Positions 5,814 to 57,186 of a stretch of DNA of 64,000 nucleotides are shown here, piece after piece. The stretch is from Prevotella sp. E2-28 (GTDB lineage Bacteria > Bacteroidota > Bacteroidia > Bacteroidales > Bacteroidaceae): NCBI RefSeq assembly GCF_022024055.1, contig NZ_CP091788.1, positions 2,542,001 through 2,606,000 of the forward strand, in the 5' to 3' direction. The notes below the pieces were generated by a model that did not search any database, was not told the DNA's origin, and saw only the letters and a program-made list of their open reading frames with translations. The position numbers were made by a program, and so were the translations under genes. Within the stretch, counting starts at the first letter, position 1. Each line of letters opens with the position of its first letter.

Positions 5814-7072
5814 ACAAAATAGAAAGGTTAGTCTACGATTGCGTCAAATCAAGCCCTGCTCTGAAGTTTTTCATTAGGAATGTCTATCAGACGGCCTTTG
5901 ACCTTCTGCCCCACCCTCAGAACCAGTTCTCACAAAACTATTGCTACAAAGAAGGATTCTTCTTTGGCTTTCATGATTGTTCCCCATTCTCTAATGACGA
6001 TACAAAGATTCTTGCTAATCACACTACCATTCCTATTAGAATGCCATACAATGGGGAAACACTGGAAGTGGGATATTTTGACTTAGATGGGAATGGGCTG
6101 ATGACAAATTTCCATCCCTTAGGCCAATCTTCTGCATGGAACTACCACAAAGGATGCCGCCTGCAATGGTGTGGTAACAATAACCGTATTATATTCAACA
6201 CTGCTATCGATGGCATAGCCGTGTCAAAAATAGTCAACCTTGACGGAAAAGAAGAATGTACTATTCCATTTCCCATTGATACGGTATCATCTGATGGTAC
6301 CTTTGCAACATCTTTTAATTATGAAAGGCTGAACATTTTGATGCCAGGCTATGGCTACGAGCATTGCACGGGTAACAGTTATATCAATGAGAACAGTCCT
6401 GAGGAGACAGGACTATTCCTTGTTAATCTTCAAACACAAGAATGTCAGCTGCTGTTATCACTGAAAGAACTTGCCAACTCACTACCAAAGGAACAAAATA
6501 CTAATCAGTATAAGCACTACGTTACACACAGCGAGTTCTCACTCGATGGTCGCTACATATCTTTTCTTCACAGATGGATTGGTGACGACTATCGCAAACG
6601 CCATTCAAGGCTGATTGTTTACGACCGTACAACAGGGCAATGGACAGCATTACCAACAAACGATATGGTATCACATTATATCTGGAACAGCAAGAATCAA
6701 ATCATCGCTTATTGCACAGTGGAAGAAGGTAATGGTCATGTATGCTTTCAGATTCCAGATAACAATTACGTGCGTATTCTTCCTGGAATCATGAACGATG
6801 ATGGTCACCAGACCATGCTAACTAATGAAGTATTCGCTACCGACACCTATCCGGACAGAAGAAGAATGGCATCATTATTCCTTGTGGATAAAAAGAAGCA
6901 AGAACGAAAACGCATTGTCTATGTTTATTCACCAAAAGCCTTTCAAACAAAAGACTTTCATCAGCATATTGCCTGTGATTTGCATCCTCGCATCTCACCA
7001 TCAGGAAAGTATATCTGTTTTGACACTGCCTTTACAGGAAAGCGTTCTCTATGCGTCATGAAAATGCCATAG
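5810..7072 (+). CDS. Capsule-locus protein with probable beta-propeller fold
   Basis: A 420-residue protein of unknown function. It contains recurrent short motifs of the type S.DG.Y.SF, SPSGKYICFD and VNLDGKEE, which suggest TolB/WD40-like blades. The N-terminus carries FFFGFHDCSPFSNDDTKI, a phrase seen in capsule-locus proteins of this kind. No signal peptide is visible, so it is likely cytoplasmic or peripheral. It overlaps the preceding glycosyltransferase gene by four bases, so it belongs to the same operon. It is the last gene of the plus-strand cluster and converges on the next gene with a three-base gap. The function might be modification or scaffolding; the sequence does not decide. 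Confidence 0.5.
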   Translation: MNKIERLVYDCVKSSPALKFFIRNVYQTAFDLLPHPQNQFSQNYCYKEGFFFGFHDCSPFSNDDTKILANHTTIPIRMPYNGETLEVGYFDLDGNGLMTNFHPLGQSSAWNYHKGCRLQWCGNNNRIIFNTAIDGIAVSKIVNLDGKEECTIPFPIDTVSSDGTFATSFNYERLNILMPGYGYEHCTGNSYINENSPEETGLFLVNLQTQECQLLLSLKELANSLPKEQNTNQYKHYVTHSEFSLDGRYISFLHRWIGDDYRKRHSRLIVYDRTTGQWTALPTNDMVSHYIWNSKNQIIAYCTVEEGNGHVCFQIPDNNYVRILPGIMNDDGHQTMLTNEVFATDTYPDRRRMASLFLVDKKKQERKRIVYVYSPKAFQTKDFHQHIACDLHPRISPSGKYICFDTAFTGKRSLCVMKMP

Positions 7073-7075
7073 AAA

Positions 7076-8092
7076 TCATAAGAACTGCATCTTCTTTAAT
7101 TCTGCAACCGAAGAACACTGCTGAGCTTTAAGGAAATCGGTTGCAGTGACACTGTCTTTCAATACACTTTGTCTTAGAATCAATTTCACAAAATGTTCTG
7201 ACTCTCTCCATGATGTGATTCCTTTCTTCCTCAACAACACTATTACATAGACAGAATACAATCGTGACCAACAGGCATACTTCACTTTTGAAATGTGGAG
7301 ACGCATATCAATAAAGCGATTCAAATAGTATATATATATACGACCTATAGATGGCATATTGGTCACTGACATACTCACCTTATGATATATCACAGAATCA
7401 TATACACACGCCATATTTTTTTTTGCAGCATTCATACGAAGACATAATTCAAAATCTTCTTCTCCAAAAAAGAAGCGTTCTGTCAACAAACTCCCATCTG
7501 GCATAAGAATTGATGGAGTAAAGAACAATGCACATCCTGTGAGAAAGGTCACTTTCTTATACCCTGACAATTGTAATTGGCTTTTATCTCTTTTGGCAAA
7601 GAAATATTTACGGAATCCCCAAAACTGCCGGCCTCCTGCATTCCATATCTTTTGTGGGTCAGAATAATAACAAATCAAAGGAGTCATCGCATCTGCCTCT
7701 GGATGAATTCTTGCGAAATCACTCAACCGAGAAAGGAACGTTGCATCTACAACCGTATCGTTATTTAACAGCAAATAATAATCAAAAGTTCCAATATGAA
7801 ACAGCAACCTAAGAACTTCATTATTGCCCCGTGCAAATCCTAAGTTCTCATTCAACGAATATAGGATAACATCACCTCGTTGAGGCTTCGTGGCCAATTT
7901 CTCACCATACTGCAATACAGAATAGTGCACACCATTATGATGTAGGTAATCAACTATCTCTTCTGTTGAATAATCTGAAGAACCATTATCAGCAATAACT
8001 ACAAAAAAATCGCCCTCAGCCTTGAACAAAGACCGCAAGCAATCTATAGTGTCACCTGCTCCATTCCAATTCAATATAATAATAACTGTCAT
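7076..8092 (-). CDS. Family 2 glycosyltransferase
   Basis: A GT2 enzyme of about 338 residues beginning MTVIIILNWNGAGDTIDCLRS, with IADNGSSD and the LLNNDTVVD metal-binding motif near residue 108. A longer frame opens at 8119, but the minus-strand -7 element lies at 8117-8124, so that ATG would be inside or upstream of the promoter. I therefore start at 8092, which matches the usual family N-terminus. The C-terminal FFGEEDFELCLR segment is typical of rhamnosyltransferase-like GT2 enzymes. It is transcribed alone, convergent with the main cluster. Confidence 0.8.
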   Translation of the reverse strand: MTVIIILNWNGAGDTIDCLRSLFKAEGDFFVVIADNGSSDYSTEEIVDYLHHNGVHYSVLQYGEKLATKPQRGDVILYSLNENLGFARGNNEVLRLLFHIGTFDYYLLLNNDTVVDATFLSRLSDFARIHPEADAMTPLICYYSDPQKIWNAGGRQFWGFRKYFFAKRDKSQLQLSGYKKVTFLTGCALFFTPSILMPDGSLLTERFFFGEEDFELCLRMNAAKKNMACVYDSVIYHKVSMSVTNMPSIGRIYIYYLNRFIDMRLHISKVKYACWSRLYSVYVIVLLRKKGITSWRESEHFVKLILRQSVLKDSVTATDFLKAQQCSSVAELKKMQFL

Positions 8093-8116
8093 TCCGAACC
8101 TTGGCATTTTGCAATG

Positions 8117-8124
8117 CAAAAGTA
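8117..8124 (-). promoter_or_regulatory. Promoter -7 element for the 8092 glycosyltransferase
   Basis: TACTTTTG on the minus strand matches the Bacteroidetes -7 consensus TAnnTTTG. Transcription would start near 8110, which favours the ATG at 8092 over the upstream ATG at 8119. Confidence 0.65.
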
Positions 8125-8259
8125 CAAATTCTTCTTCATAAAGAAGTATGTCAAACTGTTAATAATTTAGAATAATCAACATCAATGTAAATTATTATTT
8201 TCCTTACAATGTATTTTAGCCATTTTTTTTTATTTTTGGCCAAAATACATTTTATCCTT

Positions 8260-11200
8260 CTATAAAGAAATCTTTTTCACATACGAGTTGTTTGCTCGAT
8301 TAATCTTTATAATATAACACTTTCCACGACGTAAAGATACTGGCAGGTCTATGTCAAAATTGTTATTATCGATAAATTCATCAGAAATTGGTCCCGAATA
8401 TACATTAGCTCCCGATGTGGTGTATATTTGTACAGATAGAGGGGTGTGAGTATCTTGAATATTATTTACGCTTGTTTTTTGTTGAGATTTTAATTCTGCA
8501 TTGACCTTTGGATTGTTATTCTTCTTCAAACAGCTCAAATTTGTTGTTAGTTCGTAGACTTTGATTCCACCTTCATCTAACTCACATTCTTTAATATGAG
8601 ACAATTTTATGCGTTTTCTTAATAGCTTGGGTAATTGAAGATTGTCTTCATCAGATTTGACATAGTCTGATCTAATAAGAAATGTTTGCTTCTTGCTAAA
8701 ATCCTTATTAACTATAACCATATATGATTTATCACCATTTTTTAAGAATGAAATGACGGCCCCTTTACTTTCAGAAGCGTTTTGAGGCGATATATGTAAC
8801 TTTAATGCGTCTATGTAATCCTTATAATTTTTAGTTCCATCAAGGCTGGAATCACCTAAATGGTATATATCCTCAATGTGTCCATTCGCAAATAATGAAC
8901 TAACTTCGGCAATTTCTTCGTTAAGTTGATTTACCCAATTGTATATAACATCGTTCCTTGTTCCATCGCAATTTATTGGGGAGTGTGAATAATCTTGGAA
9001 ATCATTCTCAGGATTCCAATAGTATAGATATTCTAAAGCTTTTGCTCCATAAGCAAGATTAACATTTGCTTGAAGTCTTAATTTCTCTAAAGACGGTTCG
9101 ATGGTTCCACTAAGTTTCGTACATTGAATACTTCCCCAAAAATCTTTATTGTTATCCATGCTTTTCATGCTTATTACTTCCAAATATTTGTACCAATTAT
9201 TATCTAATTCGCCATCGTTTTCAGGTCTAAAGACCTTATATCTATATGTTATTGCCTTTATATCCAAACTGCATATTGAATCTATATATCTTAAGAAACC
9301 GACACCATTGTTGTCTTGATAATGTCCATAATAAAATGCAGGTTTCGCCTTTATATAGCAAAATGCGTCACCATTGATCTTATGGATATTATTAATTCTA
9401 TTCTTAACATTAGTCATTTGGGCAGAATCTGGTTCGTCTCTTATTATATAGCCAGATAATGATTTGAAATCTTTCGTATTACGAACTAAATATGAATCGT
9501 CATAATTATAACCCGTTTTTCCAAGGAGAACCTTGACATTTGCAGAGTCTGCAAATTGTAGTATTCTTTCTGCTTTTTTTTCTTTATTAATTGGTCTCAA
9601 GCTAATGTCAAAACCTGCATTATAAAGTTCGTCGTAAGCTTCTACACTTGCTTTATCCTCTGGCACGCCCCAATATGCAACAATAGGAATCTTGCTTCGT
9701 CTTTGTGTCAAGTTGAATATAAGAATGTCTCCTGCATCAATAGTATAGTCGCCAGTAGTTATTGCTTCATTTTTTAGATTAAGCTTAGAAACATGATATA
9801 AGTATTTATTACCTGTGATGTGGAGCTTTATAGGATTTCTAAAATCCTTATTAACAATTGCAAGGAAAGATGAATCTCCTTTTGTGATGATCGAAGCTAT
9901 TGCGCCCGCATTCTTATCGTCTTCAATACTTAATGAACTTATATTGTCAGGAAGATGGTTTTGGTCTAATTCTTTGACCAATGTGTTTGATGGTGCAAGT
10001 TCATCAGTTGGTTTAGCAGATTTTCCTTTCATATGGAAAACACGTTTGACGGTGCCTTCTGCAAACAATGGGCTGATGCGTGCCATTTCTTCATTGACAC
10101 GGTTCACGGTGTCGTATAGTTCCGCTTTTCGTTGACCAAATGAATCAATTGGCGCAACGTATGCTCCTTCCCCTGACAGCCATCTGTGCCAATAGGTGTA
10201 ATACGCAATAGATTTAGCACCGTAGGCCAAGTTAGCATACATCTGTAGCCGCATTTTCCCCAGTGTTGGCGTTAAGTAGTCAAGATGCTTCGCAGATAGA
10301 ACATATCCGCAAAACGGTATGCCATACTTGATACTCTTACTTCGAATTATTTCTAAATTATCAAACCATTGACGTCTGAGAACTTCATCTCCCTGATACT
10401 TGATGATGGAATAGTTGTCAAATGCGATCGTTTTCAATCCTAATTTTAAGACACAGGAGTCAATATAATCAGAATACATTTGATTATCATAAGTTTTGTC
10501 TTCTTTTATCGTTTCCGGACCATATATAGGATTCAGACAGACACGAATATTGGCTTTTGAATCTATTTGACGAATGGAATCTGCTATTGGGGCTAAACTA
10601 TCAATAGTGGTATGATTAGGATATTGGGAATTATATTGCAAGAAAGGCTCATCACCTATATAATAAGCATAAATAGACGATTTTAAATCTCGTACACTAT
10701 CCACCAAGGCACTATAACTAACAGTTTTACCACCACCTATTACAAGTTTCATACCTTTCTTCATTGCGCGTTTCAGCATATTCTTAGATGTGTTTTTGCC
10801 TGCATCACATATACTGACATCAAATCCAGCATACAACATACCCAAGTAGGCCTTTTCCATTTTAAGACCATTCCCCAAATCTATATTTCCAGGTACTCCT
10901 CCATGCCCAATAATGGGAATCATACTTCTGTGGCCAATCGTGAATTTTTCAGATTCTCCTTGTGCCAGTGTCTTCGAATATGTGTATTCTGAGTCAACCT
11001 TTTCTTTGCCAACGGGATCATCGTAGGGATGCACGAACCCATTGCAGACTAAATTGAATCGAACACTTTTCTGGTTTTCATTAATCAGAATTAGATTAAT
11101 CTTTCTTCCTTCAAGATAGGTATATACCTTTAATGGTAAATCGTCAGAAGTAGTTATATAATAAACATTGTCAAGTTTCGTACCACACCGACACACATTT

Positions 11201-11337
11201 TTTACATAAAACTCTTCTAATAGTATGTAATCATCTGGTAGTCCTAATGTGTTAGGCACAGACGCTTTTACAAAAGACGTGTTAAATGATATTTGAAAAC
11301 ATGCAAACATCATTAAGGACAATAAAAGTTTTTTCAT
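8260..11337 (-). CDS. Large secreted protein, two TIM-barrel-like domains and T9SS-type tail (copy A)
   Basis: A 1,025-residue protein starting MKKLLLSLMMFACFQIS, a signal peptide. Two halves repeat the same motifs: PIIGHGGVPG / PIVAYWGVPEDK, YYIGDEP / YIIRDEP, NLAYGAK followed by YYTYW or YLYYW, and IVNKDF. This suggests two glycoside-hydrolase-like (beta/alpha)8 domains, each followed by a beta-rich part. The last about 75 residues (SVQIYTTSGANVYSGP ... CYIIKINRANNSYVKKISL) resemble a type IX secretion sorting domain, so surface delivery is likely. It is a close paralogue of the gene at 15079-18150, in the opposite orientation. There is no stop codon between the upstream broken glycosyltransferase and this start, so the frame is continuous to 12120; I take the signal-peptide ATG as the true start because the paralogue begins at the same point. 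AT-rich relative to flanking genes. Enzymatic activity is inference. Confidence 0.75.
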   Translation of the reverse strand: MKKLLLSLMMFACFQISFNTSFVKASVPNTLGLPDDYILLEEFYVKNVCRCGTKLDNVYYITTSDDLPLKVYTYLEGRKINLILINENQKSVRFNLVCNGFVHPYDDPVGKEKVDSEYTYSKTLAQGESEKFTIGHRSMIPIIGHGGVPGNIDLGNGLKMEKAYLGMLYAGFDVSICDAGKNTSKNMLKRAMKKGMKLVIGGGKTVSYSALVDSVRDLKSSIYAYYIGDEPFLQYNSQYPNHTTIDSLAPIADSIRQIDSKANIRVCLNPIYGPETIKEDKTYDNQMYSDYIDSCVLKLGLKTIAFDNYSIIKYQGDEVLRRQWFDNLEIIRSKSIKYGIPFCGYVLSAKHLDYLTPTLGKMRLQMYANLAYGAKSIAYYTYWHRWLSGEGAYVAPIDSFGQRKAELYDTVNRVNEEMARISPLFAEGTVKRVFHMKGKSAKPTDELAPSNTLVKELDQNHLPDNISSLSIEDDKNAGAIASIITKGDSSFLAIVNKDFRNPIKLHITGNKYLYHVSKLNLKNEAITTGDYTIDAGDILIFNLTQRRSKIPIVAYWGVPEDKASVEAYDELYNAGFDISLRPINKEKKAERILQFADSANVKVLLGKTGYNYDDSYLVRNTKDFKSLSGYIIRDEPDSAQMTNVKNRINNIHKINGDAFCYIKAKPAFYYGHYQDNNGVGFLRYIDSICSLDIKAITYRYKVFRPENDGELDNNWYKYLEVISMKSMDNNKDFWGSIQCTKLSGTIEPSLEKLRLQANVNLAYGAKALEYLYYWNPENDFQDYSHSPINCDGTRNDVIYNWVNQLNEEIAEVSSLFANGHIEDIYHLGDSSLDGTKNYKDYIDALKLHISPQNASESKGAVISFLKNGDKSYMVIVNKDFSKKQTFLIRSDYVKSDEDNLQLPKLLRKRIKLSHIKECELDEGGIKVYELTTNLSCLKKNNNPKVNAELKSQQKTSVNNIQDTHTPLSVQIYTTSGANVYSGPISDEFIDNNNFDIDLPVSLRRGKCYIIKINRANNSYVKKISL

Positions 11338-12397
11338 TTGTTTTGTTATTTTAAAGTTTTCGCGGCCATCTAAGATTTCTGTAACACGCCTCGGCCAATC
11401 TTCAAACTTATCTAGACTCAAGAAGGAGCATAGTCCCATGTCAATCTCGTCAGACACCATATCTGATGTAACAATAGGCATACCCATAATCTGCGCCTCG
11501 ATGAAAGCTATGCTCAGTCCCTCCCACAAACTGGGTGCTATCATTACATCTGCCATAGCCTGCAATTCTCTCACGTTGGTATCTTGAGGCATACGCTTCA
11601 CATAGCCAGTCATATTGTTTTCACTGACAAATCTGTCCACCTCGTCATCATAACTGCCCATTCCAACAAAAAAAAGTTTGATAGCGGGATTCTGTTTATG
11701 CACCTCTTTCATCACACGCAACGCAAAAATAGGATTTTTCTGTTTCTCCATTCTGCCAATAAATACTGCTACCTTCTCATTAGTCAATCCATAAGCCTGA
11801 CGCAGAGCAGGAACATCATAATTATTTGGATTCCAGAGATCGTAATCTATACCATTATATAATGTATGGGCCTTGCCAGAACGAAATGCCTTTTCCCCAT
11901 ACAGATAGCGGGTGGCTGCATCAGAGCAGCCAAGACAGTCTGTTGCAACACGCAGCAAAAGAGGACGAGACACCACCTCGAAACATCTTTTCAGGAAGGA
12001 AGGAAGGAGGCTGCGTAAAATTATTGTGGCAATGAGAAACCAACTTACGCACGCCTGCGAGTCTGGCACATAGCAAGAAGTAGGCATTGCTGAAGTAGCA
12101 CTGACTGTGCACCACATCATATCGATTTTCCTTACACACTTTATATAGACGATACATCTGCAACAGGCAATCCTTCACATTCTTTGTTCCATTTTCAGAG
12201 ATGAAGAAAACGCGTCCCCCCATCCGTTCTATTTCAGGGCCGAGAATACCCATACCGCTGGCTGTAACCGCGAAATCAAACTGAATTTTCTCGCGGTCAA
12301 CCTTACGATACACATTCATCAAAAATGCCCCAATTCCTCCTGCCTCAAGATTGCGCATTATATGCAGGACTCTTTTTGTTTCAGAACTATTTTTCAT
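11338..12397 (-). pseudogene. GT4-family glycosyltransferase, frameshifted and missing its 3' end
   Basis: The first part starts at 12397 (MKNSSETKRVLHIM, then GGIGAFLMNVYRK) and runs to KLVSHCHNN. The rest (ATDCLGCSDAATRYLYG, NGIDYDLWN, VAVFIGRMEKQKNP, PSLWEGLSIAFIEAQ) lies in another frame. The switch falls on a TCCT repeat at 11993-12008. Removing one four-base unit gives a single frame of 352 codons (FTQPPSFLKRCFEVV at the join). The protein would be an EpsF-type GT4 retaining enzyme with the usual E(x7)E-like region. After residue 352 the sequence runs in frame into the signal peptide of copy A, so the native last residues (about 20 in relatives) and stop are gone. It could be a phase-off allele, a decaying gene or a sequencing error at the repeat. 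Confidence 0.75.
11993..12008 (-). repeat. Four copies of TCCT at the frameshift in the GT4 gene
   Basis: The plus strand reads AGGA four times without interruption. Loss of one unit (or gain of two) restores the glycosyltransferase frame, as expected for slipped-strand phase variation. Confidence 0.85.
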
Positions 12398-12405
12398 TGC
12401 AGGTG

Positions 12406-12413
12406 CAAAGATA
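12406..12413 (-). promoter_or_regulatory. Promoter -7 element for the GT4 gene
   Basis: TATCTTTG on the minus strand, with TTTG about 20 nt upstream (TATTTGTCG). The expected transcription start is almost at the ATG at 12397, so the transcript would have little or no leader. Confidence 0.65.
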
Positions 12414-12457
12414 ATAACTTTTCTCGACAAATACATCTTTCATTTAAAAAAAATATC

Positions 12458-12517
12458 ACCTCTCACCAAAATCTCTCAAAATGCCTGTAAACAAAGGCTT
12501 TGAGAGTCATGAGAGGT
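12458..12517. other. Nested inverted repeat upstream of the VapE gene
   Basis: The outer arms are ACCTCTCA (12458-12465) and TGAGAGGT (12510-12517). The inner arms are CTCTCAAA (12473-12480) with TTTGAGAG (12499-12506), and GCCT (12483-12486) with AGGC (12495-12498). More CCTCAC-type motifs follow at 12525-12550. It could be a terminator, or a recognition structure linked to the VapE element. Confidence 0.6.
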
Positions 12518-12584
12518 ATTCTTATCCCCTCACCATTCCCTCACTAACCTCAGTAAAAAGGCCAAGAAACTACTGAGTGAAAAC

Positions 12585-12626
12585 GAGTCCGAAGGCATCG
12601 GACTCTGAGTCCGCTCCCAGCGGACT
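12585..12626. other. Two adjacent perfect hairpins upstream of the VapE gene
   Basis: The first is GAGTCCGA-loop of 5-TCGGACTC (12585-12605). The second is AGTCCGCT-loop of 3-AGCGGACT (12608-12626). No T-run follows, so neither is a normal terminator. The rest of 12437-12880 holds the nested repeat, these hairpins, a promoter and a leader; no convincing gene. Confidence 0.6.
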
Positions 12627-12746
12627 GCAAGTCCAATCAGGTCGGGCAGAAGCCCTTCCTGTTCATCGTTCTGATTTCGGCCAATCTTAAAGAATAAACA
12701 GCTTATGTTTTTTATCAAAAAGCTTGCAAAACGACCATTTTTTTTG

Positions 12747-12754
12747 TATCTTTG
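12747..12754 (+). promoter_or_regulatory. Promoter -7 element for the VapE gene
   Basis: TATCTTTG, with TTG at 12724-12726 as a -33 candidate. It predicts a start near 12761 and a leader of about 120 nt before the VapE gene. Confidence 0.7.
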
Positions 12755-12765
12755 CAGTTGCAAAT

Positions 12766-12810
12766 ATGAGGCTGTTCACGCAGCTTTCTTTTGCCAAAGA
12801 AAAGAAATAG
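12766..12810 (+). other. Possible leader peptide (14 codons) in the VapE 5' UTR
   Basis: ATG to TAG encodes MRLFTQLSFAKEKK, starting a few bases after the predicted transcription start. It might be a regulatory upstream ORF or chance; nothing else supports it. Confidence 0.2.
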
Positions 12811-12880
12811 GCCCGACGCTATGAGAAACACCCATAAGCCAATCCTTGCCTAAATTATTAACCATTTAAAACTTTTATTT

Positions 12881-14113
12881 ATGAGTAAAAAACTTACCAT
12901 TAACGGTGAGGCTATGAATGCTTCGCTCGTAAAGACACTTGCTGCAGAACAGTTTCTGAATGACAAATTTCAATTCCGTCGTAATGTGCTGAACAGGAAA
13001 GTAGAGTTTGCAGAGAAGACACTAGATGGAAGGGAAATAGCATTCCGCCCGCTAACGCAGGAGGCCCTCAACAGTATCATTCTGCGAGCCAAACGTGAGG
13101 ATATCTCTGAGGGGAAAAATCCGAAGGCAGACATCGTGGAGTATCTTAACTCTGAGGAAGTAGAAACCTTCAATCCCATTCAGGCATATCTCAACGAGCT
13201 GCCCCTGTGGGACGGACAGAACCATGTGGCTCAGCTCTTCGGTCGTATTCCAGGCATCAGCACAGAGCAACTGGCGTTCCTTAGTATCTGGATGCGCTCT
13301 ATGGTGGCCCACTGGCTCCAGATGGACACCCTTCATGGCAATGAAATTGTACCAACGCTGATTGGTGCTCAGGGGTGTGGTAAGACGACATTCTTGAAAC
13401 GCCTACTTCCCCAACATCTGCGTCCATATTTCCTAGATCACCTGAACCTTTCGAATAAGTTCGACAAGGAGATGGCACTAACAAACAACCTTTTGGTATG
13501 TCTCGATGAGTTGGAGGCTATCCGTCCCAGTCAGCATGCCTCACTGAAGCAGACACTCTCGAAGAGCAAAGTGAACGGACGACCCATCTACGGTGCATCG
13601 CAGGAAGACCGCGATCGCTATGCCTCGTTTGTAGCCACGACGAATAATCTGCATCCCTTAACGGATGCTACAGGTTCGCGTCGATACATCTGTATGGAGA
13701 TTCCAAAGGGACAGTTCATCGATAACGCTGGCAACATCGACTATGATCAGCTTTATGCGCAGGTGCTCTATGAACTGCGTGAACAGAAAGCCCCCTACTG
13801 GTTCAACAATGATGAGGTGGCACGCATACAGCAGTTGAATCAGGATTATATGGAACAAAAGGACATCGCGGAGATGATAAAGATTTGTTTCCGTAAGCCA
13901 GATGAGGGCGAACGCGTGAAACCGATGAGTGCCACAGAGTTGCTAGAGTATATCCAAAACAAATACCCATCGCTGCAATGCTCCCTAAGCAATAAGGTTC
14001 GCTTGGGACTAGCCATGAAGTTCTTGGGATTCGATAGCTTTAGCCGAGGTCACATCTCTTATTATAAAGTAGTGCCCGCAAAACCTGAACGAACAACATT
14101 CAAGGCCGCCTGA
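12881..14113 (+). CDS. VapE-like P-loop helicase/ATPase (DUF3874-type C-terminus)
   Basis: A 410-residue protein. The Walker A motif GAQGCGKTTF lies near residue 165, the Walker B-like LLVCLDELEA near 207, and a sensor-like FVATTNN followed by GSRRYICMEI at about 250-270. This arrangement marks virulence-associated protein E (VapE), a superfamily 3-like helicase of phages and phage satellites. The C-terminal stretch (MSATELLEYIQNKYP ... LGFDSFSRGHISYYKV) resembles the DUF3874 end found in Bacteroidales homologues. Such genes often sit beside capsule loci as single-gene or few-gene islands. It has its own promoter and structured DNA on both sides. No integrase or primase accompanies it here, so it is likely a remnant or a domesticated element. 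Confidence 0.85.
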   Translation: MSKKLTINGEAMNASLVKTLAAEQFLNDKFQFRRNVLNRKVEFAEKTLDGREIAFRPLTQEALNSIILRAKREDISEGKNPKADIVEYLNSEEVETFNPIQAYLNELPLWDGQNHVAQLFGRIPGISTEQLAFLSIWMRSMVAHWLQMDTLHGNEIVPTLIGAQGCGKTTFLKRLLPQHLRPYFLDHLNLSNKFDKEMALTNNLLVCLDELEAIRPSQHASLKQTLSKSKVNGRPIYGASQEDRDRYASFVATTNNLHPLTDATGSRRYICMEIPKGQFIDNAGNIDYDQLYAQVLYELREQKAPYWFNNDEVARIQQLNQDYMEQKDIAEMIKICFRKPDEGERVKPMSATELLEYIQNKYPSLQCSLSNKVRLGLAMKFLGFDSFSRGHISYYKVVPAKPERTTFKAA

Positions 14114-14118
14114 AAATT

Positions 14119-14160
14119 TGAGGGGTTATGAGGGGTTAAAGCAACCCCTCATGGCCCTCA
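14119..14160. other. Long hairpin directly after the VapE gene
   Basis: Two direct copies of TGAGGGGTTA form the left arm. The inner stem ATGAGGGGTT pairs perfectly with AACCCCTCAT around a 5-nt loop, and an outer TGAGGG/CCCTCA stem extends it. No T-run follows. The CCCTCA core recurs on the other side of the VapE gene. Confidence 0.7.
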
Positions 14161-14264
14161 AAGTCTCTGCAATCGGTCGTTTCAAGAGATTTTGATGAGA
14201 GATTGCCATATAACTAAAAGAAAGCCATAAAAGAAACAACAACCATTAAAAACTAAATACAAAG

Positions 14265-14705
14265 ATGAAAGAACTAGTTTTATTCAAGGAAAAAGCCATT
14301 AAAGGCTATACTGTATGTACATCTGAACAGTGCCCCATAAAAGATAAGTGCCTGCGATGGAAGGTGGGCCAACAGATGCCAGACAATATTCGTTTTTACA
14401 GTTGCGTCAACCCACATTATCAGGATGTAGGCACAAAACAATGTCCATCTTTCCGAAAGTCAGAGAAGGTGAAATTTGCAAAAGGCATGACTAACATCTT
14501 CACCGATGATATGCCCCAGCGGGTGGTAACATACGTGCGTCAGTATCTTATCTCCGCCTATTGTCGCACTTATTATTTCGAGTATCGCAACGGTCAGCGT
14601 CTTATTCCCCCCGCCATTCAGAAGGAGATACGAACCGTGTTCCGTGATGCCGGTTGGAACGAGGAGGTCTTTTTCGATGGGTATGTAGAAGATTATGAAT
14701 GGTAA
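14265..14705 (+). CDS. Small cysteine-containing protein, DUF6078-like
   Basis: A 146-residue soluble protein. The N-terminal part has a CSEQCPIKDKCLRW-like cysteine cluster (TSEQCPIKDKCLRW, about residues 19-32) and a further CVNPHY/CPSF pair, so a metal-binding or disulfide-linked N-terminal half is possible. The second half is basic and aromatic (RQYLISAYCRTYYFEYRNGQR). I recall Bacteroidales proteins grouped as DUF6078 with this look, but this is from memory. It follows the VapE gene in the same direction, after a hairpin and an AT-rich spacer, and probably belongs to the same accessory module. Function unknown. Confidence 0.6.
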   Translation: MKELVLFKEKAIKGYTVCTSEQCPIKDKCLRWKVGQQMPDNIRFYSCVNPHYQDVGTKQCPSFRKSEKVKFAKGMTNIFTDDMPQRVVTYVRQYLISAYCRTYYFEYRNGQRLIPPAIQKEIRTVFRDAGWNEEVFFDGYVEDYEW

Positions 14706-14719
14706 AAGACTATCAAAAA

Positions 14720-14751
14720 TTTGGTTGTTTCGCAATTAATGACTACCTTTG
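14720..14751 (+). promoter_or_regulatory. Full-consensus promoter upstream of a 38-codon ORF
   Basis: TTTG (14720-14723), 20 nt, then TACCTTTG (14744-14751): an exact match to the Bacteroides-type consensus. It would fire into the small ORF at 14780 and possibly on into the gene at 15079. Confidence 0.75.
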
Positions 14752-14779
14752 CAGCACGGAAAGATTGTTTAATTATATT

Positions 14780-14896
14780 ATGAAAACATTTTACACATCT
14801 CTTGTTAACCATATCACCTATACTGTCGCCGAGGTTGACGGCATCTATTATGACTTAAACACGAAACTACCAACAACGACTTTGATGATTAAATAA
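14780..14896 (+). CDS. Hypothetical 38-residue peptide
   Basis: ATG to TAA encodes a peptide starting MKTFYTSLVNHITYTVAEVDG. It lies about 22 nt after the predicted transcription start of a consensus promoter. An alternative longer frame (from 14699) starts inside the previous gene and before the promoter, so I reject it. The peptide is not hydrophobic and matches nothing I recognise. Confidence 0.4.
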   Translation: MKTFYTSLVNHITYTVAEVDGIYYDLNTKLPTTTLMIK

Positions 14897-15078
14897 AAAA
14901 ATAATTGAATTATAGAGTTCACTTTTTTGCCTATATCCATTTGATAATAGGCACAGTTATCTTTTTTAATTCGTTTTTCAATAAATCATTGAATACAATT
15001 TATTCTATATAAATATCCCAAATTTTTCTAGGATATAGTAAAGTAGTAAAAATACTTAATCAAAAAAAAACAAAACAA

Positions 15079-18000
15079 ATGAAAAGACTTTTATTGTCCT
15101 TAATGATGTTTGCATGTTTTCAAATATCATTTAACACTTCCTTTGCGAGAGCATCAGTGTCTAGTACTTTAGAACTACCAGATGATTGCATTCTATTAGA
15201 AGAGTTTTATGTAAAAAATGTATGCTGGTGTGGTACGAAGCTTGACAATGTTCATTATATCATTACTTCTGATGAGCTACCTTTAAAGGTATGTACCTAT
15301 CTTGAAGGAAGAAAGATTAATCTAATTCTAATTAATGAGAACAACAAAAGTGTTAGATTCAATTTAATCTGCAATGGGTTCGTGCATCCCTACGAGGATC
15401 CTGTTGGAAAAGAAAAAGTTGACTCAGATTACACATATACCAAGACACTGGCACAAGGAGAATCTGAGAAGTACACGATTGGTCACAGAAGTATGATTCC
15501 CATTATTGGACATGGAGGAGTACCTGAAGAAACAAAAGACTTAGGCAAAGCATACTTGGATATGCTATATAGTGGTTTTGACGTTAGTACATGTCATTCA
15601 TGTCATACAGATTCAATAAACAAAATGCTATGCGCCGCTAAAGACAAGGGATTGAAACTAATAATTGGACATGGATATCAAAATCCATCTTGGTATAGTG
15701 ATTTGGTTAACAATACCCAAAACAACAAGAATTCAATTTATGGTTATTATATTGGAGATGAACCTTTTTTAGAAAAGGACAACAATCATCCAAACCATGC
15801 CACAATAGAGAATTTAGTACCAAAAGCGAATGAAATACGTTGCGCAGATTCTAATGCAAATATTCATATCTGCCTAAATCCTATTTATTGGTCTGTAATG
15901 AAAGTATATGATAATAACAAAAATCATATAGGCTACAATAATCAACTATATTCTGACTATATAGACTCATGTATAAAGAGACTAGAGCTATCAAATATCG
16001 CATTCGATAACTATTCTATTAGCACTAACTCTAATGGGAAACGAGTAATAAAATGCCAATGGTTCGACAACTTGGAGATTATACGCAGCCAAAGCCTGAA
16101 ACACAATATTCCATTTCGCGGATATATTCTTTCTTCTCAACATCTATATTACTTAATGCCGACTTTAGGAACAATGAGATTGCAGATGTATGCAAACTTG
16201 GCATACGGAGCTAAGTCAATAGCCTATTATACCTACTGGCACAGATGGCTTCCAGGAGAAGGTTCTTACGTAGCTCCTATCGATTCTTTCGGTCAACGAA
16301 GAGCAGAACTATACAACGTCGTAAATCGTGTTAATGAAGAAATGGCACGTATCAGTCCATTGTTTGCAGAAGGCACTGTCAAACGTGTCTTTCACATTAA
16401 CGGTGCGTCTTCAAATAAGTTAGTCAGGAATTTAACTCAAGATCATTTACCTGACAATATAGAATCCCTAAGTATTGAAAGAGATGCAAGCGTTGACAGC
16501 GCGAGCGCAATAGCCTCCATCATCACAAAAGGAGATTCTTCTTTTCTTGCAATTGTCAATAAGGATTTCGATAATCCGATAAAACTCCACATCAAGGGAA
16601 ACAAATACTTATATCATGTTTCTAAGTTAGATTTAAAAAATGAAGCAATCACTACAGGTGACTATACTATAGACGCAGGAGATATTATCATATTCAACTT
16701 GACACAAAGACGAAGCAAGGTTCCTATTGTTGCATATTGGGGCGTGCCAGAGGATAAGGCAAGTGTAGAAGCTTACGATGAACTTTATAATGCAGGTTTT
16801 GATATCAGTTTGAGACCAATAAACAATGAAAATAAAGCCATAAAAAGTCTACAATATGCCGACACAGCAAATATCAAACTTATCTTAGGAAATGCAAGTT
16901 ATGAATTTAATGATGCATCGTTAGTCCCAAAAACAAAAGATTATGAATCTTTATATGGCTATTTTGTAAGAGACGAGCCTAATTCTGCCGACTTGCCAAA
17001 TGTTAAAAAACGTATTGATAACATTCACAAATATGCCAGCAATCGGTTCTGTTATGTCAAAATGAAACCTGCATATTATACAAACTTCTACAATGATATT
17101 GATTTCACAAACTATTTAAATTCTATATCACAGTTAGACATAAAAGTTCTTACATATAGATATACACCATTCTTTACCACTGCAGAGAAAGAGGATGATA
17201 ATTGGTATAGATATTTGGAAAAAATAAGAAAGGCCAACAAAGATTTCTGGGGATGTATACAATGTACAAAACAACAATGGGTGGTTCAGCCCACTTTGGG
17301 GAAATTAAGACTTCAAACTAGCGTAAATCTTGCATACGGAGCCAAAGCTTTAGAATATCTTTACTATTGGAATCCTAAGAAAGATTCCGAATCTGCAGAA
17401 GGATGTTCATACTCACCAATAAAATACGATGGGAATAGAAATACAGAAGTTTATAGTTGGGTTAATATGCTTAACGAAGAAATTGCCGAAGTTAGTTCAA
17501 AATTTGCAAACGGCATAATAGAAGAAGTATATCATATTAATAGTATTCCTACAGGAACATCAGATTTCAAAGACTTTATCAATACTGACAAATTAAATAT
17601 AACTATATCAGGAAATCAAGGAGGTATTGTCTCCTTCTTAAAAAATAATGGCAAGACATATATGGTTATAGTTAATAAGGATTTTAATAATCAACGATTA
17701 TTTTCTATTTCGCCAAAAAATATCGTTATAACAGATTCGGATATTGATTCTTTAGATAACACCCCTCAACTACCAAAATCAAGAGAAAATGCGACAGAAT
17801 TGAGAATAATTAATAAATTGATAGTTCAAATACCTGCAGGTGGAATCAAAGTCTACAAGCTAAATACAGACTTGTGCTTTTTGAAGAAAGAAAACAAACC
17901 CAAAACTATGGCTGAGCCACAATCTTCACAAAAAATAAGCGTAAATAATATCCCTGATACTCATACTCCTGTATCTGTACAAATATACACCACATCAGGA

Positions 18001-18150
18001 GTTAATGTATATTCGGGACCTATTTCAGGAGGTTTCATCGATAATAACATTTTTGACATAGAACTTCCTAATTCTTTACGTCGGGGAAAATGTTATATAA
18101 TAAAGGTTAATTGTGCGAATAATTCATATGTGAAAAAGATTGCTCTGTAA
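15079..18150 (+). CDS. Large secreted protein, two TIM-barrel-like domains and T9SS-type tail (copy B)
   Basis: A 1,023-residue paralogue of copy A. Residues 1-24 are a signal peptide and 25-135 a beta-rich N-terminal part. The first barrel-like domain covers about 138-430, with GDEP at 226-229 and NLAYGAKSIAYYTYW near 373. A beta part (LAIVNKDF near 490) comes next. The second barrel covers about 547-800, with RDEP at 631-634 and NLAYGAKALEYLYYW, followed by a second IVNKDF beta part. A T9SS-like tail starts near 950. The repeated D-E pair at the end of a strand recalls TIM-barrel glycosidases such as GH123, where adjacent Asp-Glu residues act in catalysis; this is analogy only. The start is fixed by the signal peptide. 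It ends 36 bases before a perfect palindromic terminator. AT-rich. Confidence 0.75.
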   Translation: MKRLLLSLMMFACFQISFNTSFARASVSSTLELPDDCILLEEFYVKNVCWCGTKLDNVHYIITSDELPLKVCTYLEGRKINLILINENNKSVRFNLICNGFVHPYEDPVGKEKVDSDYTYTKTLAQGESEKYTIGHRSMIPIIGHGGVPEETKDLGKAYLDMLYSGFDVSTCHSCHTDSINKMLCAAKDKGLKLIIGHGYQNPSWYSDLVNNTQNNKNSIYGYYIGDEPFLEKDNNHPNHATIENLVPKANEIRCADSNANIHICLNPIYWSVMKVYDNNKNHIGYNNQLYSDYIDSCIKRLELSNIAFDNYSISTNSNGKRVIKCQWFDNLEIIRSQSLKHNIPFRGYILSSQHLYYLMPTLGTMRLQMYANLAYGAKSIAYYTYWHRWLPGEGSYVAPIDSFGQRRAELYNVVNRVNEEMARISPLFAEGTVKRVFHINGASSNKLVRNLTQDHLPDNIESLSIERDASVDSASAIASIITKGDSSFLAIVNKDFDNPIKLHIKGNKYLYHVSKLDLKNEAITTGDYTIDAGDIIIFNLTQRRSKVPIVAYWGVPEDKASVEAYDELYNAGFDISLRPINNENKAIKSLQYADTANIKLILGNASYEFNDASLVPKTKDYESLYGYFVRDEPNSADLPNVKKRIDNIHKYASNRFCYVKMKPAYYTNFYNDIDFTNYLNSISQLDIKVLTYRYTPFFTTAEKEDDNWYRYLEKIRKANKDFWGCIQCTKQQWVVQPTLGKLRLQTSVNLAYGAKALEYLYYWNPKKDSESAEGCSYSPIKYDGNRNTEVYSWVNMLNEEIAEVSSKFANGIIEEVYHINSIPTGTSDFKDFINTDKLNITISGNQGGIVSFLKNNGKTYMVIVNKDFNNQRLFSISPKNIVITDSDIDSLDNTPQLPKSRENATELRIINKLIVQIPAGGIKVYKLNTDLCFLKKENKPKTMAEPQSSQKISVNNIPDTHTPVSVQIYTTSGVNVYSGPISGGFIDNNIFDIELPNSLRRGKCYIIKVNCANNSYVKKIAL

Positions 18151-18186
18151 GAAAGAACGCATTTGACGAACTACAAAAGATTATCA

Positions 18187-18224
18187 AAAGAACAGCTGCT
18201 ATGACGTCATAGCAGCTGTTCTTT
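18187..18224 (+). terminator. 38-bp perfect palindrome, terminator of copy B
   Basis: AAAGAACAGCTGCTATGAC and its exact reverse complement meet without a spacer, followed by CGTTTTTC. It acts as a terminator if transcribed; as DNA it could also form a cruciform. Confidence 0.75.
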
Positions 18225-18338
18225 CGTTTTTCGACTTTCAAAGTTAAGGAATCAGATGTTTGCATTTTTTTGACCACTGCAGTTTTTTATACAACAATAT
18301 TTTTTTAAGAAATAAAGTGGTCTTTCGATTATTTTTTG

Positions 18339-18346
18339 TACCTTTG
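18339..18346 (+). promoter_or_regulatory. Promoter -7 element for the 18368 glycosyltransferase
   Basis: TACCTTTG; transcription should start near 18353, about 15 nt before the ATG at 18368, which rules out the longer frame from 18260. Confidence 0.7.
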
Positions 18347-18367
18347 CAGCCAAATTGCAAAAAAGGA

Positions 18368-19165
18368 ATGACTAGTGATCTTGTATCAGTCATTATGCCA
18401 TCATACAACTCGGCAAAACATCTTGCAGAGAGTATTGACAGCATTCTGAACCAAACATATAAGCATCTGGAACTACTCATTACAGATGACCATTCAGATG
18501 ACATGGAAACCCTGGAAATCCTTCGCTCATATAGCGAGAAGGACGAAAGGGTCAATGTGGTATTCCTTGACAGCAACCACGGCCCCGGCTATGCACGCAA
18601 CAAATCGATAGAGCGGGCAAAAGGACGCTACATCGCCTTCTGCGACAGCGATGACAGATGGTTTCCCGAAAAACTGGAACGTCAGATAGCATTCATGGAG
18701 CAGAAGAAATCTACACTCTGCTACGCTTCCTATATTATATGCGATGACAATAATACGGAGGAGGGCATTGTCATTGCCCCATCGAGCATCACTTTCGGAC
18801 AATTGAAGCGCGATAATAAGATTGGATGTCTTACCGCCATCTATGACACCCAACTTTTAGGCAAGAAATATTATATGCCTGCCATCCGCAAACGTCAGGA
18901 CTGGGGATTATTCCTTTCCATCCTACGTGACAGCAAGAAAGCATACGCTATTCAAGAGCCTTTAGCATATTACAGAAACAGGCAGAACTCGGTGTCTAGC
19001 AATAAGTTAGGACTTATCAAGTACAACATTCTGATTTATCAGAAAGTACTTGGTTTTTCAAAGTTAAAATCGCACTTATTTTTCTTCTGTTTGTTCATAC
19101 CAACCCATTTTCTAAAGCTTATAAAAAAAAGGATTGATAGCCTATTGTTTAAAATCAAAAAATAA
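18368..19165 (+). CDS. Family 2 glycosyltransferase
   Basis: A 265-residue GT2 enzyme: MTSDLVSVIMPSYNSAKHL opening, TDDHSDD, GPGYARNKSIERAKGRYIAF and the CDSDDRW metal-binding motif near residue 95. The RKRQDWGLFL stretch after the DXD motif fits enzymes of the WcaA/EpsJ type, which extend lipid-linked oligosaccharides. The frame is open from 18260, but the promoter at 18339-18346 and the family N-terminus fix the start at 18368. The basic, hydrophobic C-terminus may bind the membrane. It lies just upstream of the initiating transferase gene. Confidence 0.85.
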   Translation: MTSDLVSVIMPSYNSAKHLAESIDSILNQTYKHLELLITDDHSDDMETLEILRSYSEKDERVNVVFLDSNHGPGYARNKSIERAKGRYIAFCDSDDRWFPEKLERQIAFMEQKKSTLCYASYIICDDNNTEEGIVIAPSSITFGQLKRDNKIGCLTAIYDTQLLGKKYYMPAIRKRQDWGLFLSILRDSKKAYAIQEPLAYYRNRQNSVSSNKLGLIKYNILIYQKVLGFSKLKSHLFFFCLFIPTHFLKLIKKRIDSLLFKIKK

Positions 19166-19244
19166 TTCTTTTCTTTATATAATATTATTACATTTATAAC
19201 GTTACTATAGTGTATTAAAACCATTGAGGATATACCCTATAGAT

Positions 19245-19874
19245 ATGACAAAACTGGAGAACGGCTATGTATTAGACGGCATGAACGAGTTTGAACGCAA
19301 CATCAAACGAATAATCGACTTTTGTATTGCGCTGACTTGTCTTATCGTTTTTTCACCATTGTTTCTTATCTGCTATATACTTGTGAAACGTGAAGACGGC
19401 GGCCCCGCAATCTACCGACAGGAGCGTATTGGCCGATTTGGTCGTCCATTCAAAATCTACAAATTTCGCAGTATGTGTGTAGATGCCGAGAAAAACGGGC
19501 CAGCCCTCTTTAATCTAAATGAAGAAAAACGCTTGACAAAAATAGGAAAGTTTCTGCGTGACCATCATTTGGATGAACTTCCACAGTTATGGAATGTATT
19601 GATAGGTGACATGGCTTTTATCGGACCACGTCCAGAACGCGATTTCTATATCAAGCAGATTATAGAGCGCGACCCTCGTTATGTGTATCTCTACCAAATC
19701 CGTCCTGGAGTTACTTCTTATGCCACTCTTTATAACGGTTATACAGACACCTTGGAGAAAATGCTGCGACGTCTGGAACTGGACCTCTATTACTTAGAGC
19801 ATCGTTCTTGGTGGTTTGACATTAAGATTTTGTTCAAGACATTTATAAATATTGTGTTTGGAAAAAAATTTTAA
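19245..19874 (+). CDS. Initiating sugar-1-phosphate transferase (WcaJ/WbaP-type)
   Basis: A 209-residue bacterial sugar transferase. One N-terminal membrane helix (FCIALTCLIVFSPLFLICYIL) precedes the catalytic domain with YRQERIGRFGRPFKIYKFRSM, LRDHHLDELPQLWNVLIGDM and FIGPRPERDFY. These are the signatures of polyisoprenyl-phosphate hexose-1-phosphate transferases. The enzyme moves a sugar phosphate from a UDP-sugar to undecaprenyl phosphate, the first step of repeat-unit synthesis. It is the short, PglC-like form without the WbaP N-terminal helices. A TTG at 19224 would add seven residues; the ATG at 19245 is the better start. Confidence 0.9.
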   Translation: MTKLENGYVLDGMNEFERNIKRIIDFCIALTCLIVFSPLFLICYILVKREDGGPAIYRQERIGRFGRPFKIYKFRSMCVDAEKNGPALFNLNEEKRLTKIGKFLRDHHLDELPQLWNVLIGDMAFIGPRPERDFYIKQIIERDPRYVYLYQIRPGVTSYATLYNGYTDTLEKMLRRLELDLYYLEHRSWWFDIKILFKTFINIVFGKKF

Positions 19875-19885
19875 ATTTTTCCATT

Positions 19886-21406
19886 ATGACTTACAAAAAA
19901 TACCTTCTTATTTCAACATGTCTTTGTTGTTACGTAGCATCATGGGCACAAGATACCTCAAAGACAGAACTAACCTATGACTTATCAACTGAGGCAGCCG
20001 TAGGTTCTGGAGACTACACCGCATTTCAATTAGTCACAAATCGGCATCACACATTGGCCACACGAGCCAACACGGCTTATATGCGAGGTGCTGTGAATAT
20101 AGAGCATTCGCTGGGAAATGACCTGACTGTGTCAGGGGCCGTAGATGCCATTGCCTCAGTACATGCTGACCACAAAGCCTATTTGCAGCAATGCTATGCT
20201 AACCTGTCGTACCAGACGTTCTTTATCGAGGCAGGCACACGCGAAGAGAAACAGGCTGTGCGCAACGACTTGCTCTCCAGCGGATCGTTTGTTAAGGGCA
20301 CTAATGCTAAGCCATTTGCACAACTTCATATCGGCACCAAGGATTTCTGGACTGTGCCATTCACAAAAGATTGGATACAGATACACTTCGACGGAGGATA
20401 TGGCAGATACCTAGATGGTAACTATCGTGAGAATGCTTTCTACAAAGGAGTTACTGCCAGTGGGAAAAACGTTAACGAGAAATATGCCACTGGCATCTAT
20501 ATGCACCAAAAGCATTTGTATATCCGTACCAACCCCAATAAGCGATTCTTCGCTATGGTAGGCATGGAACACATGGTGCAGTTTGGAGGAACAGCCTATA
20601 AATATAATAAAGAAGGAGTGCTGGTCAAAAAGAACAAACCAACAGACCTGAAGGCCTGTTTCGACGTATTTCTGCCTTTTGGCGACAGTAATTATGCTGA
20701 ACATGATGCCATGGAGGACTGGATTTTCGGTAACCACGTGGGCATGATGACTGTACAATTTGGATGGAATATCAACAAAGACCATCTGTTGCAGACATAT
20801 GTAGATAATCCATTTGAAGACGGTTCCGGTATACGTAAAGGAAACGGTTGGGACGGACTATGGGGAATAGAATACACCAACAAAACTTCTGGCGTGCAAT
20901 ATGTGAGAGGTGCAGTGATAGAATATTTCCAAACAACAAACCAGTCTGGTCCTCTACATTGGGACAGTAGGGATTACCCTCAACTGAAAAACAGTGCTAT
21001 AGACGACTATGTTACAGGTAATGACGAATACTATAACCATACCTGCTACGACAGTTACACACATTATGGTATGACACCTGGTAATGCACTTATTACCTCA
21101 CCTATCTATAATAAAGATGGATACACTGCTTTCCGTGACAATCGCGTAAAAGCATGGCATGCCGGAGTGAACGGAGAAATTACAGAACATCTTGGCTACC
21201 TCGTGAAAGGATCCTATCGCGAAGGATGGGGCACTTATAATAAACCATTAGCCACTAAGCATCACTCTTTTGATGCCATGGTGCAAGGCATTTACAGCGC
21301 AGGTCCTTGGCAATTTAGTGCTTCCTATGCTTTCGACAAAGGAAACATCTATGGTGACAACTCTACATTTGACATAAAAATTGGATATCATGGCAAAATT
21401 TTGTAA
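19886..21406 (+). CDS. Wzi-like capsule assembly outer-membrane protein
   Basis: A 506-residue protein with a signal peptide (MTYKKYLLISTCLCCYVASWAQ). It has many alternating aromatic strands typical of an outer-membrane beta-barrel and ends with an aromatic-rich strand (FDIKIGYHGKIL). The overall pattern (AAVGSGDYTAFQLVTNRHH..., FIEAGTREEKQ) agrees with the Bacteroidetes branch of the Caps_assemb_Wzi family, whose members help attach or organise polymer at the surface. It is twelve bases after the initiating transferase gene and overlaps the small lipoprotein gene, so all three are probably one unit. Confidence 0.8.
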   Translation: MTYKKYLLISTCLCCYVASWAQDTSKTELTYDLSTEAAVGSGDYTAFQLVTNRHHTLATRANTAYMRGAVNIEHSLGNDLTVSGAVDAIASVHADHKAYLQQCYANLSYQTFFIEAGTREEKQAVRNDLLSSGSFVKGTNAKPFAQLHIGTKDFWTVPFTKDWIQIHFDGGYGRYLDGNYRENAFYKGVTASGKNVNEKYATGIYMHQKHLYIRTNPNKRFFAMVGMEHMVQFGGTAYKYNKEGVLVKKNKPTDLKACFDVFLPFGDSNYAEHDAMEDWIFGNHVGMMTVQFGWNINKDHLLQTYVDNPFEDGSGIRKGNGWDGLWGIEYTNKTSGVQYVRGAVIEYFQTTNQSGPLHWDSRDYPQLKNSAIDDYVTGNDEYYNHTCYDSYTHYGMTPGNALITSPIYNKDGYTAFRDNRVKAWHAGVNGEITEHLGYLVKGSYREGWGTYNKPLATKHHSFDAMVQGIYSAGPWQFSASYAFDKGNIYGDNSTFDIKIGYHGKIL

Positions 21407-57113: not shown

Positions 57114-57186
57114 GGTGCCTTAGCTCAGTTGGTAGAGCATCGGACTGAAAATCCGTGTGTCCCCGGTTCGATTCCTGGAGGTACCA
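57114..57186 (+). tRNA. tRNA-Phe (GAA)
   Basis: 73 nt including the discriminator A; GGTGCCT pairs with AGGTACC (one G-T), D-loop AGCTCAGTTGGTAGAGC, anticodon loop CTGAAAA with anticodon GAA, T-loop TTCGATT. The 3' CCA is not encoded. One T-stem pair (C-T) and the outermost anticodon-stem pair are mismatched. Confidence 0.95.

Follow-up and report, generated by a model that had tools for sequence, protein, structure and literature searches.

Why loci for exopolysaccharide (EPS) synthesis carry glycosidase-like genes is posed as an open question in the PslG paper (PMC9075953). An EPS locus of Prevotella sp. E2-28 raises the same question in duplicate: two divergent, head-to-head paralogues of about 3.1 kb, here called A and B, lie on either side of a GT4 glycosyltransferase gene, a VapE-like gene and a DUF6078 gene. 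The pair lies in a stretch of 64,000 nucleotides (contig NZ_CP091788.1, positions 2,542,001 to 2,606,000; hereafter the window, whose numbering is used unless another locus is named). How did the two copies arise, and what do their products do? On the basis of synonymous divergence, segment trees, structure prediction and comparison of loci across the genus, our preferred reading, to which we give a probability of about 0.6, is that A and B combine a common framework with diverged barrels, very likely through tract recombination, and that their products, predicted to adopt a GH42 fold, likely bind or cut the EPS of the cell itself.

Exchange tracts and the history of the pair

The original prediction, made from the DNA alone, named two head-to-head paralogues of about 3.1 kb, and these are present (Table 1). 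Their products are 66% identical over 1,050 aligned residues and the genes 72.9% over 3,179 nt, with DNA homology running from about 15 nt 5′ of each ATG to the stop codons and a longest exact run of 51 nt. Aligned along their length, the copies diverge in blocks, clearly not uniformly: protein identity is 87–90% at residues 31–150, 47–67% at 151–360, 83–97% at 361–450, 70% at 451–480 and 93% at 481–540. The blockwise pattern foreseen from the DNA is therefore real, although ‘near-identical’ was a generous term for the conserved blocks, the best 100-column block reaching 94%.

In windowed Nei–Gojobori estimates, synonymous divergence (dS) between A and B is 0.27–0.43 in four windows of A residues 1–165, 0.16 at residues 535–574 and 0.40 at 947–986, the first 120 codons averaging about 0.3; in the barrels it is above 1 or saturated in many windows and 0.66–0.97 in others. 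Synonymous identity is more clustered along the pair than in any of 10,000 shuffles (0/10,000). Slow evolution does not account for the low values of the 5′ tract, because both copies are far from their relatives there: dS to L003, a single-barrel locus of another genome, is at least 1.5 or saturated in every window, and dS to L004, a second single-module relative, is 1.3–2.1 in the N-terminal windows, the lowest value anywhere being 0.94. In protein identity (P0018 left out), none of the 18 other rows exceeds 77% to either copy over residues 31–150, the block in which A and B are 87–90% alike; in each window of residues 211–360, some outside protein is nearer to A than B is, by up to 93% versus 67%. 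Tracts of low synonymous divergence between paralogues are a mark of gene conversion and, as the synonymous divergence is blocky, these tracts have very likely been exchanged, not merely conserved.

Trees of separate segments conflict in the way expected of gene-conversion paralogues. A and B are sisters in the tree of the N-terminal domain (support 100/100; P0018 dropped as too short), whereas in the barrel 1 tree B joins the L004 group (100/99) and A falls outside that group. A sister relation of A and B in barrel 1 is rejected under three settings (approximately unbiased test, p-AU 0.020, 0.027 and 0.016), as it is for residues 291–432 (p-AU 0.002). The trees use 21 of the 39 rows of alignment A2, with seven further distant rows as outgroup in one run; of 25 proteins, this alignment leaves out P0004 (99% identical to L003) and P0014 (a 294-aa fragment).

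Several results weigh against this history. The conflict is not significant for residues 151–290 alone, where the sister relation is not rejected (p-AU 0.128); A changes place when distant rows are added to the barrel tree; the tree of the C-terminal sandwich places A with B as its best solution, weakly (77/62); and barrel 2 is without close relatives and hence offers no test of its history. Lineage-diagnostic sites in barrel 1 are few: six pair A with lineage 1 and B with lineage 2, two show the reverse and 17 are common to A and B, against 1, 1 and 24 outside barrel 1 (Fisher p 0.044 for 6/17 versus 1/24), a count of little power that agrees in direction with separate barrel 1 histories.

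Because blocky dS coincides with segment trees in conflict, A and B appear to have a common frame and separately descended first barrels, the two barrel 1 domains following what would be different family lineages. The frame may have been homogenised by conversion, or a barrel may have been imported through homologous flanks; the data fit either route. Of the domain-scale recombination between copies that had been predicted, the exchange itself is supported by dS and by the trees; the product differs from the one envisaged, in that the copies share a framework and the first barrels appear to have separate histories.

L003 holds one single-barrel gene in the same slot, between homologues of the genes at 5810 and 18260 and in the orientation of A, so the position of A is probably the older and that of B the added one. 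We propose that a single-barrel ancestor of the slot, as in L003, gained a second barrel and a tail before an inverted duplicate of the gene arose. The N-terminal sandwich and other framework tracts would have been kept alike by homologous recombination, either from copy to copy or with alleles entering via conserved flanks. In a search of 5.8 billion clustered proteins, A and B alone had the two-barrel form, among 7,992 and 7,991 candidates sharing most words; single-module relatives in other genomes (L003, L004 and P0004–P0021) have 492–534 residues, the fragments P0014 and P0018 aside. A single-barrel query matched 31 of 398 genomes of the genus at 1e-30, this genome included, the other close matches being confined to G265 (100%) and G345 (71%).

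Predicted fold and active face

Each protein consists of a single-barrel module of about 540 residues, a second barrel that matches the first at 29–31% identity, and a tail at the C-terminus. The predicted fold of B is GH42-like and corresponds to that of a GH42 (PF02449) catalytic domain. PF02449 itself scores 23.9 bits in B and 15.9 bits in A (curated cut-off 21), and 18 of 39 family members match it at E 0.01 or better. A sequence search of solved structures with the family profile returned AI-designed TIM barrels (best E 9.9e-5) and weak matches to beta-galactosidases (best E 0.0051); B alone gave nothing below E 0.086 in that search, and NCBIfam gave no match to full-length A or B.

The diverged blocks had been placed at the barrel entrances and the conserved ones in the framework, a division that residue counts in both barrels bear out. 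Beta–alpha loops are less often identical between A and B than the rest of the barrel, at 57/108 versus 130/182 in barrel 1 (Fisher p 0.0015) and 45/88 versus 119/173 in barrel 2 (p 0.0067). By element, identity in barrel 1 is 53% in the beta–alpha loops, 82% in strands, 68% in helices and 70% in alpha–beta loops, beside 88% in the N-terminal and 81% in the C-terminal sandwich; barrel 2 has 51% in loops, 78% in strands and 66% in helices. Beyond barrel 2 a sandwich (47%) and the linker before the tail (35%), an additional diverged block, precede a tail at 84%. Judged on the model, A–B divergence concentrates in the loops of the predicted active face.

The acid/base motif of GH42 at the end of strand beta-4 is Asn-Glu. 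All 39 members of the present family have Asp-Glu-Pro at this place, with the Glu kept and the Asn absent. Barrel 1 of both A and B keeps Asp-Glu-Pro and the beta-6 Asp. In neither copy does barrel 2 have the beta-6 Asp, so that it more likely binds than cuts. A point against cutting by barrel 1 lies at position 352, the place of the GH42 beta-7 nucleophile as set by strand beta-7 of the model rather than by superposition: it is Ser in 32 members, Cys in 3, Ala in 2 and Thr in 2, and, being non-acidic in 39/39, makes ordinary retaining hydrolysis unlikely. Together, the Asp-Glu at beta-4 and the missing acidic beta-7 nucleophile set the family apart from GH42 beta-galactosidases and the GH164 beta-mannosidase Bs164, to which identity is 12–13%. 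The Asp-Glu chemistry of GH123 and GH20 is substrate-assisted, and the invariant Asp-Glu-Pro with its missing beta-7 acid prompts the idea of such chemistry here; neither family was among the 50 matches shown of either structural comparison, which excludes nothing.

The barrel family in exopolysaccharide loci

The window from 1 to about 19,900 reads as an EPS locus, with an EpsG-type polymerase, a Wzz-like gene (Pfam score just below cut-off), a flippase-like gene, several glycosyltransferases and an initiating sugar transferase. The setting recurs: a barrel gene lies in an EPS locus in 23 of the 30 other matching genomes of the genus, that is, in 22 of 29 scanned loci and in L100, which was kept out of the scan as a source of reference sequences and read separately. 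Each of the 22 has a polymerase, flippase, chain-length, initiating-transferase or Wza gene within the stretch. Labels denote similarity to genes of the window, L100 or L107 (the L107 flippase is over its Pfam cut-off); several reference genes come from the scanned loci themselves, and the count of 22 does not use glycosyltransferase labels.

The barrel gene is often packed closely behind its neighbour. Among 25 unfused loci, 21 have their upstream neighbour on the same strand, and in 17 of these the two genes overlap or are at most 15 nt apart (−4 nt, for example, in L101, L103, L120, L125 and L130); since each start was set at the earliest codon possible, overlaps are maximum values. Four of the 29 loci encode in-frame fusions, in which the barrel is joined to a flippase (L107), a GT8 (L115) or a GT4 (L111 and L124) enzyme; Pfam backs the labels of L107, L111 and L115 (its gene as L065), and that of L124 comes from similarity to L111 only. 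Database fusions comprise P0029, which is GT8-like (GT8 under cut-off; 145 members), and P0002, an intact 1,364-aa GT4–A fusion whose cluster has 15 members and which comes from the present species or one close to it. No literature on such fusions or on this barrel family was found in open-access PMC texts.

The joint of L107, L111, L065 and P0029 contains one hydrophobic stretch which, coming after a cytosolic enzyme, would put the barrel in the periplasm; the signal sequence of P0002 is weaker, as no 17-residue window at its joint passed 1.6. Alternatively, signal peptidase cleavage would give two proteins from one frame. That barrel genes are packed closely behind those for EPS glycosyltransferases and a flippase, and are repeatedly fused to them in frame, suggests that while EPS is assembled the family sits in the periplasm or at the inner membrane.

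In the window, the open frame of A runs on upstream into the GT4 gene (8260–12120), a point that the original prediction does not make; the second part of that gene is in frame with A. The frameshift lies at a short tetranucleotide run within 11921–12120 and is possibly due to slippage or an assembly error. That frameshift would suit a reading of the fusion as a relic, in which a decayed glycosyltransferase was joined to A by deletion, A itself is decaying and B is the working copy. We consider this unlikely, given the intact fusion in P0002, and given that A has a full frame and the barrel 1 residues that are invariant in the family.

Rather less likely still is that A and B are enzymes for scavenging diet or host glycans that landed in an EPS locus and are secreted by the type 9 secretion system (T9SS). 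The GH42-like fold and T9SS-like tails would agree with it, as would a genome with GldM (557 bits) and 15 sorting domains over cut-off, and the distant members outside the genus, which lie in stretches without EPS genes. However, the tails are below cut-off (TIGR04183, B 16.5 and A 16.4 bits, cut-off 23; PF18962, A only, 19.3, cut-off 27) and the sorting-domain matches of the genome at E 0.001 include neither protein; the earlier description of the products as surface proteins is weakly supported. EPS neighbours in most matching genomes, the frequent packing behind a same-strand gene and the fusions to EPS enzymes likewise speak against scavenging.

The functional half of our reading has its own counter-evidence. 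Five of the 29 loci are without any EPS or glycosyltransferase gene (one being a 3.2-kb contig) and two have glycosyltransferases only. Of 24 genomes from the order but beyond the genus, two match at 1e-3 (G411 and G419), and three stretches there (L108–L110) show no EPS gene. A T9SS-like tail would fit surface export rather than an inner-membrane tether. As separate observations, L110 (G411) carries a pair of distant barrel relatives, co-oriented on a single contig (5241–6527 and 8164–9483), with no EPS genes around, and the two distant members in G419 are on different contigs.

Table 1 Positions of the paired genes, their parts, neighbouring genes and fused frames
Feature	Position	Strand	Remarks
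Gene A	8260–11337	minus	1,025 aa; signal-like N-terminus, beta-sandwich, GH42-fold barrel 1, sandwich, barrel 2, T9SS-like tail; fold as modelled for B
Gene B	15079–18150	plus	1,023 aa; architecture as in A
Inverted arm, 5′ end of A	10890–11352	minus	463 nt, 90% to 15064–15526; takes in about 15 nt before ATG
Inverted arm, 5′ end of B	15064–15526	plus	Low-synonymous-divergence tract
Second low-divergence tract, A	9616–9735	minus	Residues 535–574; junction of sandwich and barrel 2
Second low-divergence tract, B	16675–16794	plus	Residues 533–572
B N-terminal beta-sandwich	15187–15486	plus	Residues 37–136; 88/100 identical to A
B barrel 1	15502–16371	plus	Residues 142–431; DEP 227–229, Asp310, Ser352 at GH42 nucleophile place
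B C-terminal beta-sandwich of module 1	16375–16698	plus	Residues 433–540; 88/108 identical to A
B barrel 2	16726–17511	plus	Residues ~550–811; DEP kept
B tail resembling T9SS type A sorting domain	17929–18144	plus	Below cut-off
EPS polymerase-like gene (EpsG, PF14897)	1643–2713	plus	Pfam over cut-off
Flippase-like gene	2710–4044	plus	MatE 24.7 bits, cut-off 24.9
Glycosyltransferase family 2, adjoining end of A	7076–8119	minus	
GT4 glycosyltransferase gene	11338–12436	minus	Directly upstream of A; frameshifted; no stop before A
VapE-like gene (PF05272, DUF3874)	12881–14113	plus	Incidental member of dispersed family
DUF6078 gene	14265–14705	plus	
Glycosyltransferase family 2, adjoining end of B	18260–19165	plus	
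Initiating sugar transferase (Bac_transf)	19224–19874	plus	Pfam over cut-off
Fusion frame in L107	6521–9115	minus	
Fusion frame in L111	4636–6969		
Fusion frame in L115			699 aa
Fusion frame in L124			754 aa

Around the pair, a perfect 38-nt palindrome just 3′ of B (18187–18224) is probably a terminator. The protein of 5810–7072 has no Pfam family over cut-off and a weak Dpp5/TolB-like propeller match; a 45% homologue adjoins the barrel gene in L003. Rfam at gathering score gave no RNA element in 7000–20000, the one tRNA of the window lies at 57114 and not at the core, and megablast found no plasmid relatives of the region.

Inversion, precedents and meaning

Bacteroides capsule and surface loci have invertible promoters and shufflons, and at the present locus, too, inverted repeats surround a segment of a capsule-type locus. 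The original prediction was that recombination within the genome could invert the core and reassort domains of the two copies, giving new combinations of surface proteins. The 463-nt arms at 90%, 3,711 nt apart, with exact runs up to 51 nt, would allow this, a second arm pair is longer and weaker (9380–9909 and 16501–17030; 530 nt, 82%), and exchange tracts very likely exist. Unlike the repeats of the Bacteroides systems, though, the arms are coding and degenerate, and inversion has not been seen: a single orientation is present. The genome lacks any PF00239 match, and of its nine PF00589 matches the nearest is more than 320 kb from the pair (other recombinase families were not searched). Nor did the suggested survey for paired, inverted homologues yield any in the 30 other matching genus genomes of 398, none of which has a second copy at 1e-30; this genome alone has more than one. 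Nothing found supports a dedicated inversion system, and we regard an invertible locus as very improbable.

A role of the VapE gene in the core is likewise unsupported. The genome has seven near-full copies (that of the window and six at 68–75%), a single broken one, and another seven matches that are partial or distant; the copies lie in unrelated neighbourhoods and, where full length, are 63–87% identical in protein to each other. With up to 6 kb read on each side (the partial locus L056 set aside), none of the seven other copies, six near-full and one broken, lies between inverted paralogues; one is flanked by genes of a single orientation for two large proteins, alike in a 43-residue tail (63%) and in a stretch at 27%. 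VapE is a dispersed family, incidental at this locus. An imperfect inverted repeat surrounds the gene (12460–12532 and 14129–14201; 73 nt, 73%); a mobile element around VapE as the driver was considered and rejected, the downstream repeat arm having few, weak and partial matches in the genome and the VapE copies having unrelated neighbourhoods. VapE is also followed by DUF6078 at L049 (with a distant relative in L053), and L120 is a VapE/DUF6078 pair near the EPS locus of another genome.

Least probable of all is that A and B are old duplicates under uneven selection, without exchange, in which the framework is constrained and the loops drift: module 1 strands and sandwiches are indeed more alike than loops, and the tree conflict fades in residues 151–290, but synonymous sites follow the same blocks, protein selection does not explain dS of about 0.3 beside saturated dS, the N-domain and barrel trees conflict over the whole barrel, and a codon or RNA constraint in the 5′ tract is countered by the high A–L003 and B–L003 dS there.

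For the exchanged framework with diverged barrels that we favour, precedents exist in part. The Porphyromonas gingivalis proteins Kgp and Fim are also Bacteroidota proteins with domain variants exchanged between conserved parts; there the exchange is between strains (PMC5266723), whereas in A and B it would be between two copies of one genome, in proteins of an EPS locus. By role, the closest precedent is PslG, which like PelA, AlgL and PgaB is a carbohydrate-active protein encoded inside an EPS cluster. Inner-membrane anchoring of PslG matters in Psl synthesis (PMC9075953). Unlike the PslG group, A and B are GH42-like without the beta-7 nucleophile, duplicated and double-barrelled, and have relatives fused to a glycosyltransferase or flippase. 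On our preferred reading, a locus with two barrels that differ in ancestry could deal with two variants of the repeat unit, or with two linkages.

More tentatively, and with the odds against it, Prevotella-type EPS could be built with membrane-tethered editors: a GH42-fold barrel, hung by a signal sequence on a glycosyltransferase or flippase, would read or trim units reaching the periplasm, and would be exchanged as a cassette, within frames that stay constant, whenever the EPS changes. The mirror-image pair would keep two such barrels, of different ancestry, so that recombination could change editing specificity.

The locus is notable for holding barrels of different ancestry in one frame, and for a family whose members are in several genomes joined physically to EPS enzymes. 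The fusions to glycosyltransferases and a flippase in these genomes point to the step at which the barrel family should act, and the same frame with different barrels is a natural experiment: if A and B act on different substrates, the two domains, once purified, should reveal it.

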